In this document: in pieces, positions 9,799 through 31,430 of the stretch
How positions within the stretch are numbered: the first letter of the stretch is position 1
Layout: every line of letters starts with the position of its first letter
Source: a virus
Direction: 5' to 3' (one strand)
DNA length: 64,000 bases
IMG/VR virus record: IMGVR_UViG_3300045141_000107
Span: 26,206-90,205 of that record
Notes under the pieces: generated by a model
Database searches by the model: none
Told to the model about the DNA's origin: nothing
Seen by the model: only the letters and a program-made list of their open reading frames with translations
Program-made: the position numbers and the translations under genes

Positions 9799-9900
9799 AT
9801 GTTCGAAGATCCAAATCCGCATCCGGAACCACATCCGGAGCCGCACCCGGAACCCGAGCCAGAGCCGGCACCACAGCCAGCTCCGCCGCCGACCAGGTAA
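9799..9900 (+). CDS. 33-aa Pro/Glu/His repeat peptide
   Basis: A very short gene with an excellent ribosome site (AAGGAGGGTACCC) and its own -10-like site upstream. The product is nearly all PHPE and PEPEP repeats ending in PAPPPTR, so it should be an extended, polyproline-like chain. The His/Glu content could bind metal. A terminator follows. The function is unknown, and its size means most gene callers would miss it. Confidence 0.6.
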   Translation: MFEDPNPHPEPHPEPHPEPEPEPAPQPAPPPTR

Positions 9901-9919
9901 TCCGGAGCAGAGTGCATTA

Positions 9920-10321: not shown

Positions 10322-10618
10322 CTAGAAGCTTGCTTCTTCCTCTTCGTCGTCCTTTACGTTGGGCGCAGGAAACATCTTCTCAAGACGTGCCTGCTCGGCT
10401 GGTTCAAGCAGGTGAACGGAGAAGCTGCGCCAGTATTCGTTCTCTCTTCTTAGCATCTTCTCGTTGTGGTCCATTATCTCTTTGAGATCTAATATCTGTT
10501 TGTCCTTGGATTCTATCAGCGCTTTGGACAGATACGATATCGCTCCAGTCAACACGCCCATAATGCCGCCAATAGCTGCAAGTGTTGTGAGATTTAGAAC
10601 GAATTGTTCGTCCGCCAC
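10322..10618 (-). CDS. Small membrane protein with coiled coil, possible lysis accessory
   Basis: A 98-aa protein from a GTG start. Residues 9-33 form one strong hydrophobic segment (LTTLAAIGGIMGVLTGAISYL). A charged, probably coiled-coil region follows (SKDKQILDLKEIMDHNEKMLRRENE), ending in an acidic tail DDEEEEASF. This layout fits a small inner-membrane lysis or superinfection protein. It is the last gene of the late operon, after the holin-like genes, which favours lysis. I cannot distinguish holin from spanin-like roles. Confidence 0.6.
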   Translation of the reverse strand: MADEQFVLNLTTLAAIGGIMGVLTGAISYLSKALIESKDKQILDLKEIMDHNEKMLRRENEYWRSFSVHLLEPAEQARLEKMFPAPNVKDDEEEEASF

Positions 10619-10623
10619 AGTTT

Positions 10624-11727
10624 CTACGGCCGATTGGGGAATGGGGGTGTTGGTAGGGGTGGGCGAGGTGTTATCGTTGGTCTGGGCGTAAAGGTTGGCC
10701 GAGGCGTAAAAGTAGGACGCGGAGTGAACAGCCGATCTATTAACGAAGGTGTATTTGTTGGCCTCGGGGTCGGGGGTGGCACACTTGTTGGTGGCACAGA
10801 GGTAGGAGGTAAAGGGACAGATGTACTGGTCGGCACCTCCGGTACTCGTGTTGGTTGTGCCGGTACCGACGTCGCAGTAGGTATTACAACTGGTGGCGCA
10901 CTGGTAGGGGTTGGCTGGCTTGGGATTGGTGTAGACGGTGCTACAGGAGCATCTGTGGGGCGCCCAACAACGGGTGTGTTTGTAGCAGCTCCAGGAACTG
11001 ACGGTGACGTCGGCTGAACAGGTACAGGAGTGTTAGTTGCCTGCCCTGGAGCGACAGGTACAGATGTATTCGTCGGCGGGCTACCTGGGGACTGTATAGG
11101 GCCAGATGCGATAACCGTCTGCGGCGTGGGAGCACTATCGTCTTCTGGCTCTGGTGTAAATACAGGGGTAACCACGTCAACAACCCTATCCGGTTCCCTG
11201 GCTGACTCCGCGGCAATGGGTTCTCCATTTTGGTCTGGTACTTCCTGTTCTGGCTCCGGAGTAGCTGTTGGTATGATAACTATGGTAGCCTGAGGCTTTA
11301 CTGCGGGCTTGGGTGCCACAGGAATAGCTATCGTCGCCACCAGGAACGGTGTAGACGTAGGACCTGCTTGTTCTATTGGTGTTGGATTGGTTTCTACTGA
11401 CACCACGTTGTTGTCCTCGTCTACATCTACCGCCAGCACAACTGGAGTTGCTTCCTGTGTCGGCACACCCTCAGCCTGCACACCTTGTGCAGAAACTACA
11501 ACATCCCCCTGAGCATTGTGGCTAAGTGTCACTTGCAGCGCTACTGGAGCTATCGGGGTCTCCGTTGGCCCGATTGTCGCCGTAGGAATAGGCGTGGGTG
11601 AAGGCGGTATTGCATTGACTACATGGACAGCCGATATATTCACTATCAGCAGCATGAGTCCAACGCCAGCCCAACCAGCAACAAACATCCATGCCCAAGG
11701 ACCAAGATAGCCCCAGAACGACCTCAT
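10624..11727 (-). CDS. Membrane-anchored Pro/Thr-rich stalk protein
   Basis: A 367-aa protein. I start it at ATG 11727, in an ATGA overlap with the upstream holin-like gene. Residues 1-37 hold one transmembrane segment (WAWMFVAGWAGVGLMLLIV). The rest is extended low-complexity sequence with TPxPT, ATNTPV and repeated TPRPTFTPRP units ending in PPFPNRP. Such linkers are a hallmark of secreted or surface proteins of Chloroflexota, which is the main clue to the host. It lies within the lysis cassette. It could tether to or span the cell wall at lysis (spanin-like) or modify the surface; both are inference. Confidence 0.65.
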   Translation of the reverse strand: MRSFWGYLGPWAWMFVAGWAGVGLMLLIVNISAVHVVNAIPPSPTPIPTATIGPTETPIAPVALQVTLSHNAQGDVVVSAQGVQAEGVPTQEATPVVLAVDVDEDNNVVSVETNPTPIEQAGPTSTPFLVATIAIPVAPKPAVKPQATIVIIPTATPEPEQEVPDQNGEPIAAESAREPDRVVDVVTPVFTPEPEDDSAPTPQTVIASGPIQSPGSPPTNTSVPVAPGQATNTPVPVQPTSPSVPGAATNTPVVGRPTDAPVAPSTPIPSQPTPTSAPPVVIPTATSVPAQPTRVPEVPTSTSVPLPPTSVPPTSVPPPTPRPTNTPSLIDRLFTPRPTFTPRPTFTPRPTITPRPPLPTPPFPNRP

Positions 11728-11894
11728 CTCAATAGAATTGCTACGTTGGTGGCTCCAAGCAATATCGCCGTCTGAGCATCCATCTTGTTGGTCAGCCACA
11801 GAACCAAACAAGCAACGATGACCAGGATCGCAATCAGCGCACCAATCCACCCACCGTATACCACGGGATAAGTACGCGTCGTCTGTACTGCCAT
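11724..11894 (-). CDS. Holin-like small membrane protein, 56 aa
   Basis: Starts at ATG 11894 in a TAATG overlap with the preceding gene and ends in an ATGA overlap with the stalk gene. Two hydrophobic stretches are visible: GGWIGALIAILVIVACLVLW (residues 14-33) and TAILLGATNVAILL (42-55), separated by a short charged loop NKMDAQ. This is the layout of class II-type holins. Being two genes after the amidase strongly suggests a lysis role. Confidence 0.7.
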   Translation of the reverse strand: MAVQTTRTYPVVYGGWIGALIAILVIVACLVLWLTNKMDAQTAILLGATNVAILLR

Positions 11895-12109
11895 TATGTG
11901 CCTCCCTCGTTGGGTGCAGCCGGAACTAGATACGCTACGCCGAAACTGATGACCGTGATCAGTGCACCCGCTACAACCACAGGCATCGTAATACCGAACA
12001 TACTGAGTACCCAGATGATGATGGTAGTCACAGCCGCACCAACACCACCCGCTGTTACTTTCCGTACTGGTGCAGCAGATGGAGCATCAACTGATTTGGC
12101 TTCACTCAT
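11894..12109 (-). CDS. Holin-like small membrane protein, 71 aa
   Basis: The start ATG 12109 overlaps the amidase stop (ATGA). After a polar N-terminus of about 24 residues come two hydrophobic segments (VGAAVTTIIIWVLSMFGI and VVVAGALITVISFGVAYLV) separated by TMP. The protein ends in a short polar tail. This resembles phage holins paired with amidase endolysins. With the next gene it forms a two-holin (or holin/antiholin) arrangement. Confidence 0.72.
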   Translation of the reverse strand: MSEAKSVDAPSAAPVRKVTAGGVGAAVTTIIIWVLSMFGITMPVVVAGALITVISFGVAYLVPAAPNEGGT

Positions 12110-12846
12110 ACACAAGCCTCCAGACCCAGATCGTTAGCCAGTGCTTGGAACCGCCCAGAGTTCCACCATCTGTTCCCACAGCACTGCGTCCGTGAGCTAG
12201 GGCTGATGATGCGGTGACCCATCAAGTACCTGATGTCTGGGAACATCTTCAGGGCAACCTGGCACACTTCCAGCGTACCCTGGTACTGAGCATCGGTTAC
12301 TGTCGTGCTGCCAGAGCCATTGTCTTCTGTCTCAACGGTTACCGTCTGGTAGTTAGGGTTCTGGCTGTTGCCCACAATGCCCACCCACTTGTTACCAGAC
12401 TCTAGGATACCGTTTGCCCAGGAACCATCTCGCAAGTTTACGTATTGATGCTTCTGCCCTCCTAAGCCAATACCAAAGTGAGAAGAGACTTGTGCAGCAG
12501 AATTCTGAAACCAATTGTCACATGAAGACAGGGTGCCAGCCATCGTATGAATCACAATAGCTACTACCCGCATGCCAGCCCTACCGTTGTAATGATTGGG
12601 GCTGGCGATGTACTGGATATTCGCTTCTGGCGGTATGGGTGGTGGTATGTCGCGCGTGTACAGTGGACTTCTGGAATTGAGCCTTCCCGTCCAAGTTGGA
12701 TTCAGCGCCAGTAGCCAACCTTCAACGGAATCTGCCCCGGACTCCGACGCCAACCACCTACCATCTTCCATCGCAGCCAAGGCGCGTGTGATAGCAGACT
12801 GTTGCTGGCTCAGAGTAGCCATTCGCCATTCCAGGTTGTCGTCCAT
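12106..12846 (-). CDS. Endolysin, N-acetylmuramoyl-L-alanine amidase
   Basis: A 246-aa protein with an Amidase_2/PGRP-type domain. AIVIHTMAG near residue 95 gives the first zinc His, SHFGIG is the typical core strand, and LMGHRIISPSSRTQCCG near 215-230 holds the second His and the usual Cys. It should cut the amide bond between muramic acid and the stem peptide. I start it at ATG 12846, which overlaps the upstream stop as TGATG, rather than at 12933. Residues 1-50 repeat the small protein encoded just upstream (QQQ...AxxxRW...GADxVxGWxxALxP), so the N-terminus is a duplicated helical module, perhaps for targeting. Confidence 0.82.
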   Translation of the reverse strand: MDDNLEWRMATLSQQQSAITRALAAMEDGRWLASESGADSVEGWLLALNPTWTGRLNSRSPLYTRDIPPPIPPEANIQYIASPNHYNGRAGMRVVAIVIHTMAGTLSSCDNWFQNSAAQVSSHFGIGLGGQKHQYVNLRDGSWANGILESGNKWVGIVGNSQNPNYQTVTVETEDNGSGSTTVTDAQYQGTLEVCQVALKMFPDIRYLMGHRIISPSSRTQCCGNRWWNSGRFQALANDLGLEACV

Positions 12847-13025
12847 CAGTACAGTGGCTTCTTGGGGCTTGTTTGGATATTGGGATCTAGCGCCTTGACC
12901 CAACCATCCACGGTATCGGCCCCACCAGCCCAACGAGCTTCAAGTGCAGCCCTGATTGCGTTGGTCTGATAAGCCTGCTGCTGCTCAAGCTGGTGTATCT
13001 TAGCCGCCATTTCCTCAGGGTTCAT
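12846..13025 (-). CDS. 59-aa protein, paralogue of the amidase N-terminus
   Basis: A short gene coupled on both sides (ATGA with the upstream gene, TGATG with the amidase gene). Its residues 13-48 (LEQQQAYQTNAIRAALEARW then GGADTVDGWVKALDPN) align with residues 9-50 of the amidase, so one arose from the other. It is probably a helical hairpin plus a short Trp motif. It may be a free subunit that associates with the endolysin. The function is unknown. Confidence 0.65.
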   Translation of the reverse strand: MNPEEMAAKIHQLEQQQAYQTNAIRAALEARWAGGADTVDGWVKALDPNIQTSPKKPLY

Positions 13026-13291: not shown

Positions 13292-14365
13292 CTAGTGTGG
13301 ATATGTAGTGGTCGGGCAGTAGACTAGCCACAGATTGCCGTTCATGCCTGCTCCAAAGTTGCAGTTCATCTGCACAGCAACAACCGTCCCTGCATTGACA
13401 AGAACTGCACCACCAGCTCCATCATAACCAGTATGCCAGCCGTAGTTTGTGGCTCCAGGAGCAGGGTTGTTGAAGTTCTGTTGCGTCCCAATACTACCAC
13501 CAAACCTGAACCTGATGAAGCCACCGTATGGAGCAGGAGCACCACCACCGAAGTAGCAGTGTATCATTCCTGCCCAATAACCTGTTCTGTTTACGGTAAT
13601 AGCTGCGATGTCTACCCACTGCCCACCAGTACCTGAGCTACCTACACTAAGACCAGTACTCAGGACAGATAACGCAGGAGGCAAGACTCTGTTGTAGGCA
13701 GCTTCCCAGCTCTCACCGTTGCTCCATACACGACTTGGACCCCAGGCACTATTGGCTCTAGCTTGCCAAGTGTCTCTCTGGTTGACCATGTCGTTGTAGT
13801 AGCCGACGTAGGCGTTGTAGTTCTGCTCCCAGGTAGAACCATTGTTCCACTGTCGGCTTGGTCCCCAGTAGTAGTCTGCCTGTCCCTTCCAATAGGCAGC
13901 AGTCTGGCTCCAGAAGACAGCATTTGCTGGTTGCCCAGGATAGCTGTAAGCATAACCCTGAGGATCTCTGGCATTTCGCCACTCATTACCCCATTGAGCA
14001 TTCCACTGCTCAGCGGTGGTGGAGTAGAACTGTCCGTTGTTCCAGCCTGGCGGATGCTGCGCCCCTAGTCCAGAGCTACCCTGGCCTCCACCAGTATCAC
14101 GAGCATTGTTGTACTCTGTGACGTACATTGGAATCCACTGTCCGGCAGTGGTACTCCAAAGCTGTCCATTTACCCACCCTGTAGGATGTGATCCAGTAGA
14201 GGTGTCCCTAGCGTTGGCGTACTCTGTGTTATATCCGGTCTGCCACTGTGTAGACGTAGTAGACCAGCGCTGTCCGGGTGTATACCCAGAAGGAGGATGG
14301 ACTCCTGTGCTATTGTCGTTAGCCTGCCCAACCCAATAGCCTACTTGAGAAGCAGCGTATGTCAT
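13292..14365 (-). CDS. Aromatic-repeat tail surface protein
   Basis: A 357-aa protein. Start 14365 follows GGAGGGCAGC. Residues 10-215 are built of seven or so repeats of 30-37 residues, each with HPxGWxNGQxWSTTAxQW, then a W/Y-rich spacer and the closing NARDT or equivalent. The C-terminal 130 residues form a separate strand-rich, Gly-rich domain, typical of a fibre tip (GYWAGMIHCYFGGGAPAPYG). The repeats look like carbohydrate-binding or shaft units. I infer a host-surface receptor-binding role from its place after the fibre genes. Confidence 0.6.
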   Translation of the reverse strand: MTYAASQVGYWVGQANDNSTGVHPPSGYTPGQRWSTTSTQWQTGYNTEYANARDTSTGSHPTGWVNGQLWSTTAGQWIPMYVTEYNNARDTGGGQGSSGLGAQHPPGWNNGQFYSTTAEQWNAQWGNEWRNARDPQGYAYSYPGQPANAVFWSQTAAYWKGQADYYWGPSRQWNNGSTWEQNYNAYVGYYNDMVNQRDTWQARANSAWGPSRVWSNGESWEAAYNRVLPPALSVLSTGLSVGSSGTGGQWVDIAAITVNRTGYWAGMIHCYFGGGAPAPYGGFIRFRFGGSIGTQQNFNNPAPGATNYGWHTGYDGAGGAVLVNAGTVVAVQMNCNFGAGMNGNLWLVYCPTTTYPH

Positions 14366-15216
14366 GCTGCCCTCCACTGGATGCCATTGCTCTTGAAGCT
14401 GTATGCATCGCCAGCGACTACTATACCGTTCTGGACAGCGCCAGTAACCAGATTAGTAGACCCTCCAAACACCGTGCTGCCACCAGTAGCAGTTACCGTG
14501 ATTGTACCAGCCTCAGCAGCAACTGTGATGGGTCTTTCTGTTAGTGTTGGGTCTGGAAGCACTAAGCTCTGTGCAGATGCCAGATAGCCGAAGAAGAACA
14601 GCTTGCCTGCCAACATCGCAGCGGTAACGGGTGTGACATTGGACCTGAGAGTTGTGTTCTTGTACATGCTCTCAGGATCACTACCCGTGCTAGGGTGTAA
14701 GTAGGCAAGGCAGGTACCGCCAGCGGGGTTCTCCAGAGCAATCCCAAACGCTGCGGAGGTACCAAGTGCAGTACCAGTAGCTATAACACTGTTATCCTGC
14801 GTTACGAGGTACTGGAGGCGGCTGATACCAGTAGCCTTCGTCCGCACAAAACCTTCCATCGCAACGCGTCCGACAGCACCAGCGGCGATGTCTTCTACAA
14901 CAACGCCAACCATCTCACCTCTGGCGCCTGCGACTGGCATGATGAAACCTCGGTCCACAGCAGGATCGAGCATCACCACGTCGCCACTTTGTCTGGCAGC
15001 ACCAGTATTGTTCACGAAGTCCTGGCTTAGCCCACCTGTGAGGGTGATAGTGGAGAAACTCCATCTGCCAGTGATTACTTCGTTGAAATCAAAGAAAGTG
15101 CTCCTATCACTCAGGCTCGAGTTGAATCTGGTGGTATCCCTAACACCAGCGTTTGGTGTAGGGTCATCATCAGTTACCTCTGGAAGTAGAAATCCGTGTC
15201 GAACGGTTGTTTGCAT
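14362..15216 (-). CDS. Tail-associated structural protein, 284 aa
   Basis: ATG 15216 is preceded by AAGGTGAGCA. The protein is beta-rich with Gly/Thr/Ala strands (ITVAAEAGTITVTATGGSTVFGG) and contains a capsid-decoration-like segment (GDVVMLDPAVDRGFIMPVAG then EMVGVVVEDIAAGAVGRVAM), a pattern common in phage surface proteins. It lies directly after the baseplate wedge genes and before the aromatic-repeat protein, so I infer a fibre or spike role. No enzyme motif is seen. Confidence 0.55.
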   Translation of the reverse strand: MQTTVRHGFLLPEVTDDDPTPNAGVRDTTRFNSSLSDRSTFFDFNEVITGRWSFSTITLTGGLSQDFVNNTGAARQSGDVVMLDPAVDRGFIMPVAGARGEMVGVVVEDIAAGAVGRVAMEGFVRTKATGISRLQYLVTQDNSVIATGTALGTSAAFGIALENPAGGTCLAYLHPSTGSDPESMYKNTTLRSNVTPVTAAMLAGKLFFFGYLASAQSLVLPDPTLTERPITVAAEAGTITVTATGGSTVFGGSTNLVTGAVQNGIVVAGDAYSFKSNGIQWRAA

Positions 15217-27613: not shown

Positions 27614-29841
27614 TAGTTGGGAATCCTATTGAGCACGGTCTGTTTCCACGCAGGCCACTGCGGACCAGGACACTCTGTTGAATAAGCATCCTTGTGGCCT
27701 TCTACAGTAAGCTTCCTACCAATCTTCTTCTGGCAGTAGCCGATAGCATTAGCCATACCTGTCATCTGCTCGTCATTAGGTGCTACGTCACCAGCATAAC
27801 AGATACCGACATAGGTCTGGTTCCTACCGCTAGCCGCACTGTGCCAACACGCTACATTGAGGTCCCATGCCATAGACGTCTTACCATCTTGCTCGACAAA
27901 GAACGTGTATGCCAGACCTGGGAACGGAGTGTTGTTACCAGTTTGTCCCCTGGCTGCTTCAGAAGTCTGATACTGAGCCACTTGGTAGGCTGTCTGGCTA
28001 GCAGGACCAGCAGTGTAGTGGAGCGTCACACCAGTAATGGCACTAATATCTCGCTGGGAGTAATTGGCTTCGTGGTTCGTGGGTAGCTGGCCTATGACGT
28101 TGACCGGCTGCCAATCTGGGGAAGTCTTCTGTGCACCAGAACCTACGATAGCACGCACATACTCCACTTTGGCATTGTACTCACCCTGTGGTGTACCACC
28201 ACCTGCTCCATTCCAGTTGGGATAGACGTGCCACTGGCGGAATCCTGCTTCACCACCACCAGCACCCTTCCAGATACCATAAGCTGCTCTGGCATTTGTA
28301 GCTGGAGCTGCCAGGACGTCTGGCCCACCATACGTCGGCCAATGTACCTCGTTGATCTGCCACAACCCTGTATCATGCCCATTGACGGGATAGGTCATGT
28401 CGCAGTTGCCGCATTCGTACAAGCTAATGGCGACCATCTTGATTGCATCGTCATTAGTCTGTACAGGCGAGAAACCAGCCGCCACAGCCAGTTGGTATCT
28501 GTCAAGGACGCTAACCGAGCCAGACATCTTGGTCCACTCACGGCCAGACGGTACAGCAGTCTGCCCGCCACTACCAGCCACGGCTGGACCAAGCAGATCG
28601 CTACCAGCAGAGCTAGCCTTCGTCTGTGCTCTAGCTGCGTAGGCTTCAGGCAGTGCATCTTCAATGTTCACCGTAAGAGACATTGAAGCTTCTTGGTCTG
28701 ATACTGTGTGGGTACCCGACTTTACGTAGTATTTACCAACCAGACCAGTAATCTCATCACGGATATGTACAGGGTCGCCAGCCCGCACCGTGTTGATATT
28801 GAAGGTGGTGATAGTACCTGTGTTCTCAAACTTCACCAACTTCTTATACAGCTTCATGCCCTGCTGTTCTGCATTAGCTCTGTCGTTACCCAGATCGAGT
28901 GCTACCTCGCCAGGTGCTTGCAGATCTACAGACTCTGAGAACATACCGTACTTGTTGACTTCTTTATCGTTTCCAGCCTCAATAACATCCTGGGCAGGCC
29001 ACTGGAAGATCAGACTTGGTCCACCACCACTACCACCCTCCAGCAGATCATTAGCAGTGCTGCCTCCAGAACTACCCTTGTAGACCCTGATGACGTTTGA
29101 GTAGTTCTCCATGCTAAAGTTGTTCTGTGAGGAGAAGATATTTCCAGGGTTGTTGTTCCAAGAGTCTGGCCCAGGCTCGAACATACCACGATTGAAGTTC
29201 CAGATGCCACTTGGTGGAGTACGCGCCACAAGCTCTACCTTGCCAGCATTCTCCTGCAACAGGAACCGTGCATCAGCATTGATGTCTCTGGTATAGGACA
29301 ACGCAGAGACCCACATGTCCCAGATGGTACGGTTCATGAACGGCTCACGCTCTAGCTGCACACCAGTGTCCATGATAGTGCCCAACGGTATACCGTAGTA
29401 TGCAGCCGTGCGCGTGATGAACTGGCTAGCCGTCTCGCTCTCAAGCATAATAGAGTCTTTATTACGCATGATGTACCACATGACGTTGTAGCCAGTAGCT
29501 TGGAGAGTGCCACCCTCTTCACTACTCAAAGTGGTCTTGGAGATAAATGCCCTCTTGAGCAGGTCCCAAGTCATCTCAAGGTTACTACCTACCGGACGTA
29601 CACCGTACCCATAGATCTTAATCCTGTCACCAGGCTTGACAAGATTAGCAATGTTCTGCGTGTGGGCAAAAGTGACGGTATAATGCTCAGCAGGTTGGTC
29701 AAGATCGTAATCCCACTGAATGGAGGTTACGATCTCAGTAAAGTCCTGGCTAGTGCCAAGGTCAGCACTAACCACCACGACCTTGTATTCACTTATCTTG
29801 AGGTCGTTGATGTTTGGGGTTTGCGTACTAAGTAGTGGCAT
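27613..29841 (-). CDS. Baseplate hub (XkdQ-like) fused to two peptidoglycan-cleaving domains
   Basis: A 742-aa protein. Residues 1-400 match the XkdQ/gpD-type hub ([32 protein letters not shown], then [20 protein letters not shown]). Residues about 450-560 look like a lysozyme/transglycosylase fold ([20 protein letters not shown] then SLYECGN... and [14 protein letters not shown]). Residues 600-742 form an Amidase_2/PGRP domain with VTLHYTAGP and [15 protein letters not shown]. The hub sits at the tip of the tail tube, so both domains probably open the host wall on injection. Confidence 0.87.
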
Positions 29842-31430
29842 TAGAATTTGGGCGGCATGCCCTTCCTTGGTGTCTCAGAAGGTGTATTCTTCGGCATACC
29901 AATTGTGTTGTCGGTACCAGCAGAGCCAGTAGTTGTCGGACCAAGTTGTGCACCAGCCCCAACAGGACCAGTAGACAATCCAGCCCCTACAGCTCCAGTT
30001 CCAGCAGCAGCGGCTCCAGCTACTGCTGTCGCAGCACCTTCCACAGCAGTAACGGCTTGATCGATAACAGTCGGCTTGGCTGCGGATACTGGCTGTTCGC
30101 TGTAGTACCTCACACCGCTACCAACCTTGAGGGGACTAGTGTAGGGATCATAATGGTTGTCCAAAACCCACTGGTTTAGAGCCAATAGGGTAGACATGTC
30201 ATTTGGTCCCTTACTGTTCACCCTACCCATTACCTGAGAAAGTGTTTCGCCAGGATGCCTATATTCGTCAGGCAAATTGGGGTCGTTGGGATCTATGTAG
30301 CCGATGTTTGGATCAACATGCTGGAGGTTTAGAGGCTCTTCCACAACCAGCGTAGTCTCAATGTGGATAAGAGAATCTCTACCGCCAGTGTGGTCAGTTG
30401 GTGGGGTAGTGGGAGTATCCGGTACCACTGGTACTTCAGCAGGGTTAGGATCAGTGTTGTCTGGAATCTCAACAGCAACACCAGAATCCGTGGTAGCACC
30501 AGGCTTGCGCGGATCCTTAGGCCACCTGTCCTTCTCAGAGTCTGGGTTAGGCGACGTGGTGACAATCGGCGCACGGTACCTTTTCATGGAGATCGTGTAG
30601 TAAATGTCGAAGATCTCACCAGCTTTGTGTCTGTAGTTGAAGTTGGTGATTACTACCTGATCATTCCATATGCCGCCACCTACCACCAGCATACAGTTCA
30701 TCTTGAATCGCATTGTCCAGATTAGTCTGGACGTTAGCGACCTGGGATCCTCAAGCTCAGTTGGTGTGATGAACATGTAGTCTGAATCGTAGTGGCTCGG
30801 GAAGAAGCTGTCCCAGCTGATAGTCTCCATTGACTGCCCGCCAGGCATGATGATCTCACCCAGACCAACTACTCTCGGTGTCCAGTATTCATGGGTGAAA
30901 TCAGCGCCAAACTCCTCTGGCATTACGGGAAACTTGATGTCTCCACCGTATGCCCCTAAGAGTGTGATATCAATGAAATTACGCTGCGCACCCTCCCCCA
31001 TTGTGGGGGAACCATCGATCTCAACGCACGGAGTCCAGTCGTGCTTGGGATTGATCTCAATAAGATTAGGTGCACTTCTTGCTGGGACAAAGATGTTGGT
31101 GCCGCTAGCTGTCCCACCACCAGGCACTCCATTGTTCAGCCAGGGTGCATAGCCTGGAGGTGGCGGATCTTTGGTACTAAGGCCCCAGACATCTGTATCA
31201 ACTCCAAGACCTGAAGTACGCATTGTACCATCAGGCCATTTGGGGCCAAACTTTGGACCTACTGTCTCAAAGGTGTCGAACTCTACGTCGCCCTGCCAGT
31301 AAGTCTTCTTCCGCATCTCCAGGCCAACAGACCCTGGATATGTAGGATCTGTGGCATTGGGGTCAAAGTAGACTTGCTCGCCTACCTGTACGGCATCAAA
31401 GCCTTCACCTGTTTCAGGGTTCATTGTCAT
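29841..31430 (-). CDS. Baseplate protein, XkdP-like, with Pro-rich end
   Basis: A 529-aa protein. The order next to the hub and motifs such as FPVMPEEFGADFTHEYWTPR and METISWDSFFPSHYDSDYMF match the XkdP-type tail protein of PBSX-like phages. Residues 310-350 form an acidic, Pro/Thr-rich linker (DPNPAEVPVVPDTPTTPPTD). A C-terminal domain around 400-460 (YRHPGETLSQVMGRVNSKGP) resembles a LysM motif, expected to bind peptidoglycan. The end is an Ala/Gly-rich low-complexity tail. It starts in an ATGA overlap with the tape measure. Confidence 0.75.
   Translation of the reverse strand: MTMNPETGEGFDAVQVGEQVYFDPNATDPTYPGSVGLEMRKKTYWQGDVEFDTFETVGPKFGPKWPDGTMRTSGLGVDTDVWGLSTKDPPPPGYAPWLNNGVPGGGTASGTNIFVPARSAPNLIEINPKHDWTPCVEIDGSPTMGEGAQRNFIDITLLGAYGGDIKFPVMPEEFGADFTHEYWTPRVVGLGEIIMPGGQSMETISWDSFFPSHYDSDYMFITPTELEDPRSLTSRLIWTMRFKMNCMLVVGGGIWNDQVVITNFNYRHKAGEIFDIYYTISMKRYRAPIVTTSPNPDSEKDRWPKDPRKPGATTDSGVAVEIPDNTDPNPAEVPVVPDTPTTPPTDHTGGRDSLIHIETTLVVEEPLNLQHVDPNIGYIDPNDPNLPDEYRHPGETLSQVMGRVNSKGPNDMSTLLALNQWVLDNHYDPYTSPLKVGSGVRYYSEQPVSAAKPTVIDQAVTAVEGAATAVAGAAAAGTGAVGAGLSTGPVGAGAQLGPTTTGSAGTDNTIGMPKNTPSETPRKGMPPKF

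Follow-up and report, generated by a model that had tools for sequence, protein, structure and literature searches.

What completes lysis by phages of monoderm bacteria once the wall has been cut is an open question, and it is raised by a phage locus in which the gene for a membrane-anchored, Pro/Thr-rich protein lies among lysis genes. The locus poses two problems, namely what such a protein might do and whether its repeats reveal the host. The window (i.e., the whole stretch of 64,000 nucleotides analyzed here) comprises bases 26206-90205 of the 90,205-base IMG/VR record IMGVR_UViG_3300045141_000107. It derives from a soil bacteriophage with a contractile tail, for which terminase, portal, head protease, major head protein, tail sheath, tape measure and baseplate genes were recognized; no tRNA genes were found in the record.

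Lysis cassette of the window phage

A preliminary description of this DNA had placed the Pro/Thr-rich gene inside a lysis cassette, and this was borne out by the identification of a PF01510 amidase and a PHROG 9284 holin. The minus-strand order is amidase-N-terminus-like protein, amidase, holin, 56-aa protein, Pro/Thr-rich gene and 98-aa partner (Table 1), with start and stop codons that overlap or abut throughout. The reading frame described previously for the Pro/Thr-rich protein was confirmed, with its ATG at 11727 overlapping the stop codon of the upstream gene as ATGA and its own stop codon ending at 10624. An ORF on the opposite strand (10604-11017) has the look of an antisense artefact.

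Table 1 Features of the lysis locus and of related loci. Positions refer to the window unless preceded by a locus name.
Feature	Position	Strand	Evidence
Partner, 98 aa, one N-terminal TM, GxxxGxxxG, charged cytoplasmic coil	10322..10618	-	Alignment A4
Pro/Thr-rich single-TM protein, type A "stalk", 367 aa	10624..11727	-	ORF, orthologues, dN/dS
Conserved basic C-terminal motif PTNTPSLIDRLF(TPRPTF)n, residues 323-367, net charge +6	10627..10761	-	Near-invariant in type A orthologues
Conserved strand-rich acidic segment, residues 62-151	11275..11544	-	Alignment A2; dN/dS 0.07-0.16
Transmembrane helix, about residues 12-34, predicted N-in/C-out	11626..11694	-	Hydropathy, flanking charge, AlphaFold2
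Small membrane protein, 56 aa, holin-like; stop overlaps Pro/Thr gene start	11724..11894	-	ORF; no family match
Two-TM holin	11894..12109	-	phrog_9284 holin, E=2.4e-13
N-acetylmuramoyl-L-alanine amidase (endolysin), start codon uncertain	12106..12852	-	PF01510 E=3.2e-14; phrog_1794 amidase
Stand-alone copy of amidase N-terminal domain, 59 aa	12846..13025	-	Similarity via amidase search in other records; ORF
Probable tail-associated wall-cutting domains	27661-28041 and 29841-31430	-	PF01510; phrog_380
Amidase-replacing protein, tentatively papain-like	L022:3644-4072, L045:3166-3594, L062:3584-4012, L024:5093-5656		Conserved Cys/His/Asn

A 142-187-aa protein takes the place of the amidase in several relatives; its conserved Cys, His and Asn residues form a papain- or C39-like pattern. 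Pfam gave no significant family for this protein (E=0.01 at best), AlphaFold2 and Foldseek analysis of the relatives' version returned low confidence and no usable match, and the papain-like assignment is thus a weak one. The small domain that precedes the amidase (LxQQQxx...ARWxGxxSVDxWxxALDPxI) also stands alone at L022:3423-3623 and L045:2945-3145; in relatives it precedes the unrelated papain-like lysin as well, and it is also found fused to the amidase N-terminus. It is perhaps an exchangeable endolysin-targeting subunit.

Several neighboring features were recorded as well. Upstream of the lysis genes (13292-14377, minus strand) lies a Trp-rich repeat protein built of WxxGQxWSTTAxQWxxMYxxEYxNARD units, whose unit number and C-terminal domain vary between relatives and which perhaps serves in receptor binding or tail decoration. 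Inside a 742-aa protein of the tail region there is a further PF01510 amidase domain, and the gene that follows contains a phrog_380 endolysin domain; both are probably tail-associated wall-cutters besides the endolysin. On the opposite strand, at 9800-9901 (plus), a mini-ORF encodes 33 residues rich in HPEP and EPEP (MFEDPNPHPEPHPEPHPEPEPEP...), and similar repeats occur downstream of the gene pair in relatives (in L022 as an antisense GSGSG frame).

A Pro/Thr-rich tail behind a single membrane helix

Hydropathy, AlphaFold2 and motif counts agreed with the earlier claim of one transmembrane segment followed by a Pro/Thr tail with TPRPTFTPRP and ATNTPV repeats. The protein had no Pfam or PHROG match. 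AlphaFold2 modeling (four sequences) placed an N-terminal helix at residues 3-39 (pLDDT 62-77) with moderate confidence for the transmembrane helix and little else (mean pLDDT 42), which is expected of a disordered tail. Flanking charge around the helix provided a weak topology signal.

The tail comprises 325 residues (24% Pro, 15% Thr) and ends in TPRPT repeats, with Pro and Thr together making up 35% of the whole protein and 60% of its last 52 residues. TPRP occurs five times in the tail against 0.09 expected, a count that none of 5000 tail shuffles reached, and ATNTPV is present twice. No DNA tandem array was detected in the gene by TRF, and successive TPRPTF units differ in their synonymous codons. 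Both observations led us to reject a recent DNA-level repeat expansion and point to an old repeat selected at the protein level rather than to DNA slippage. All nine long forms of the protein, which belong to two non-alignable types (A and B, see below), have a strongly acidic first tail half (net -13 to -19), and their distal 55 residues carry a net charge of +5 to +7 in type A and +1 to +5 in type B.

Orthologues of type A were found in IMG/VR (L022, L023, L044, L045/L046, L024, L050 and L049) at identities of 99, 86, 79, 76, 43 and 37%. They share a GPW-containing transmembrane segment, an acidic strand-rich segment, a variable middle and a near-invariant basic end, PTNTPSLI(D/E)RL(F/T)TPRPTFTPRPT. 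Strands in the acidic segment (VALQVTLSH...TPVVLAV...TPFLVATIAIP...VKPQATIVII) were predicted by AlphaFold2 at low confidence. Comparison of the window with the nearer relatives L045, L022 and L023 gave Nei-Gojobori dN/dS values of 0.16-0.33 for the whole gene and 0.04-0.10 for the terminal 52 residues. Orthologues down to 37% identity combined with these whole-gene ratios indicate a real coding gene under selection. Searches with tblastn yielded no plasmid match to the protein and, among 50,697 named-phage records, no match to it or to its other types.

A conserved partner and the movement of the pair

The gene that follows encodes a 98-aa partner with homologues in related phages. In a search that covered whole records and all retrieved loci, each of the 15 IMG/VR records with a true partner homologue has it immediately downstream of a membrane-anchored Pro/Thr-rich ORF, a count that includes L079, where only the 3' end of the Pro/Thr ORF is on the contig, and two near-identical pairs of records that are not independent (L045/L046 and G005/G006). 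Partner homologues are 22-94% identical (alignment A4), with GxxxGxxxG invariant in the transmembrane helix. All 12 homologues examined for charge have no Lys or Arg before the helix and two to five after it, which predicts an N-out/C-in topology. Two further matches (L074 and L075) were rejected, being 264-aa soluble proteins with only a short RDYWRDLA motif in common, and tblastn against the 50,697 phage records at E<=1 gave no named-phage match. No partner was seen in the related records G003, G004 and G014, which are fragments and possibly incomplete, suggesting that the pair may not be essential.

The Pro/Thr ORFs ahead of the partner are of at least three kinds that cannot be aligned with each other. 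Type A extends to L070, whose version has diverged (about 31% identity, BLAST E=1e-4); type B (G005, G006, G007 and G008) begins with MNLYA and has an internal DGQ.L..QS.QTQ.DF motif; and a short form of 83-85 aa occurs in L005, L006 and L008, the long forms measuring 343-451 aa. That unrelated Pro/Thr tails keep turning up with one and the same partner suggests that a physical property is being selected. The pair is displaced from the endolysin in two lineages: it lies about 50 kb away in G005, next to the terminase in both G006 and G008, and about 12 kb away on the opposite strand in G020. Since both genes are displaced together, the pair appears to travel as a unit. Just downstream of the relocated pair in G008 (L081:3098-3454), a two-TM protein was noted that is reminiscent of small low-affinity iron permease-like proteins.

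Positions outside the lysis cassette in these four genomes also leave room for a non-lysis role, in which the stalk would decorate the infected cell, blocking superinfection or altering the surface, and would lie near lysis genes simply through shared late expression. The switching of a Pro/Thr-rich, probably extracellular tail between unrelated types fits such a surface function. We nevertheless consider it distinctly unlikely, as the pair usually sits within an endolysin-holin operon whose start and stop codons overlap, and the partner has the topology of a lysis protein.

What the repeats say about the host

Pro/Thr repeats may well be characteristic of surface proteins in Chloroflexota, as the preliminary description stated in taking them for its best host clue. 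Our literature search linking this phylum to Pro/Thr repeats returned nothing relevant. A scan of 84,980 prokaryote genomes (one per species, any phylum), sensitive to close relatives only, detected no relatives of the terminase, and searching the same genomes with strict patterns from the Pro/Thr C-terminus gave 12 matches of which none was confirmed, a weak negative. Related phage proteins were more informative as to envelope type. Named relatives of the amidase were Streptomyces, Bifidobacterium and Paenibacillus phages, the only named relative of the capsid protein was Microbacterium phage Magritte, and those of the sheath were Bacillus, Clostridioides, Listeria and one Arthrobacter phage. 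Actinophages made up most of the portal matches, alongside some Pseudomonas and Vibrio phages, and the terminase matches were similarly mixed, phages of Gram-negative hosts included. Given that the amidase, capsid and sheath relatives occur in phages of Gram-positive hosts, a monoderm host appears likely from these sequence comparisons. Chloroflexota are usually regarded as monoderm (PMC13319060). A host from this phylum is therefore compatible with the data without being singled out, as Actinomycetota and Bacillota would fit too, and the Chloroflexota reading found no independent support among the tests run.

A related explanation is that the repeats were acquired from a surface protein of a Chloroflexota host and so mark that host. 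The composition, the TPRPT motifs and the probably monoderm host agree with it, as does a transmembrane protein with TPRPTWTPWPT repeats in the taxonomically unplaced L025, which has an Excalibur-like domain (weak match, E=0.0016, below the Pfam cut-off). Set against this, the tail scan of genomes gave no confirmed match, the tail is for the most part specific to phages and conserved across them, and the recurrence of unrelated types agrees with a physical property being selected rather than with mimicry, so that we regard acquisition from the host as very unlikely. The 48-kb IMG/VR record concerned encodes two different transmembrane proteins with TPRPTWTPWPT-type repeats (L025:5713-6507 and L059:13503-14177), one of them ending in the weakly matched Excalibur-like domain and with a tyrosine recombinase-like ORF nearby; both are unrelated to the window gene. 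The host bacterium cannot be told from the Pro/Thr feature, and the existence of the pair is a caution against reading a host from Pro/Thr repeats by themselves.

A putative two-part lysis accessory

As a tentative reading, which we rate slightly below an even chance, the Pro/Thr-rich protein and its partner may form a two-part membrane-stalk lysis accessory that resembles the corynephage protein LysZ in role. Its bases are the cassette with ATGA overlaps, selection that is strongest at the basic tip, the pairing in all 15 records and movement as a unit, together with the precedents of LysF1b and LysZ discussed below. The N-terminal helix of the Pro/Thr-rich protein would anchor in the cytoplasmic membrane and, if the charge-based topology is correct, leave the long tail outside as an extended flexible stalk, acidic near the membrane and basic at the tip. 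In a full polyproline-II conformation such a stalk could span as much as about 100 nm, long enough to cross a wall. The partner would insert the opposite way, with its N-terminus outside and its charged coil inside, and probably pairs with the stalk through its GxxxGxxxG helix. At lysis, the two-TM holin and the LysF1b-like partner could open the membrane for the endolysin, while the basic tip might hold the stalk in anionic wall or surface polymers. By coupling membrane to envelope in this manner, the stalk may help to disrupt the envelope, like the role proposed for LysZ. Whether the combination amounts to a new membrane-stalk lysis module of uncultured soil phages, in which a swappable external stalk and a conserved LysF1b-like partner form a mobile unit doing a spanin-like job in thick or layered monoderm envelopes, is a further claim that we hold to be possible though somewhat unlikely.

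The same architecture could alternatively serve as a lysis timer, with the Pro/Thr-rich protein acting as a class III holin-like or antiholin-like regulator (following the logic of T4 T and RI) that would use its external tail to sense the wall or a second infection, keeping the LysF1b-like partner inactive until triggering. Like the type III holin T of T4, the protein has a single N-terminal transmembrane domain, predicted N-in/C-out, with its bulk outside (PMC13056207), and both the strict pairing with a holin-like one-TM protein and the invariant GxxxGxxxG of the partner helix suit a regulator. The external domain of T is globular, whereas the Pro/Thr tail is predicted to be disordered, and no homology between the two was detected. 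Strong conservation at the far tip moreover points to a distal binding partner, and a timer is in our estimate unlikely.

Comparison with known lysis systems

In the preliminary description the Pro/Thr-rich protein was likened to a spanin. In the known systems, a lipobox defines the o-spanin, a lipobox together with a C-terminal transmembrane domain the u-spanin, and an N-in/C-out coil the i-spanin (PMC6139136). The Pro/Thr-rich protein was rejected as an o-spanin, having neither the N-terminal lipobox [LVI][ASTVI][GAS]C, nor any cysteine in its 367 residues, nor an outer-membrane anchor, and as a unimolecular spanin because its transmembrane segment is N-terminal and no lipobox is present. 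An i-spanin assignment was likewise rejected for the partner, whose charge pattern predicts N-out/C-in in all 12 homologues instead of an N-in/C-out periplasmic coil. The defining features of spanins are thus missing, but a wall-spanning role in lysis is still plausible. The arrangement does recall Rz/Rz1 (PMC6139136) as a pair of small membrane-anchored lysis genes of which one is Pro-rich, and this likeness, together with the position in the lysis cassette, is what speaks for a true spanin of a diderm host. The stalk pair differs from Rz/Rz1 in having no lipoprotein and no outer-membrane anchor, and the topology of its coil protein is opposite. With a spanin PHROG matched only at E=0.059 in one of nine partners, we judge a diderm spanin extremely unlikely.

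Closer parallels to the proposed lysis accessory come from phages of monoderm bacteria. LysF1b is a one-TM protein with N-out/C-in topology that deletion has shown to be needed for normal lysis by the mycobacteriophages Girr and NormanBulbieJr (PMC13056207). The partner shares with it a single N-terminal transmembrane segment, the (charge-predicted) N-out/C-in orientation and a charged helical cytoplasmic tail, and the cassettes of both contain an endolysin and a two-TM holin (PMC13056207). Differences are that the partner has no sequence similarity to LysF1b detectable by tblastn in phage records and is paired with a Pro/Thr stalk.

LysZ of the Corynebacterium glutamicum phages CL31 and Cog is described as a spanin-like single-TM protein with N-in/C-out topology and a proposed action on lipid-anchored glycans (PMC13056207). 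In anatomy and cassette position the Pro/Thr-rich protein fits this pattern, with its single N-terminal transmembrane segment, presumed external domain and place among lysis genes, although its flanking charge is a weak indicator of N-in/C-out topology. A LysZ-like protein would further be expected to give small plaques on deletion, an effect relieved in a host deficient in lipoglycan. LysZ measures 177 aa and the long forms of the Pro/Thr-rich protein 343-451 aa; the latter is also distinguished from LysZ by its Pro/Thr richness and by the second transmembrane gene that always follows. LysZ would on this analogy be the nearest functional precedent for the Pro/Thr-rich protein and, within the literature considered, is the spanin-like factor proposed so far for monoderm lysis. 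A conserved mobile pair with a swappable extracellular stalk makes the question of monoderm lysis testable, and the partner provides a sequence handle for finding further such systems.
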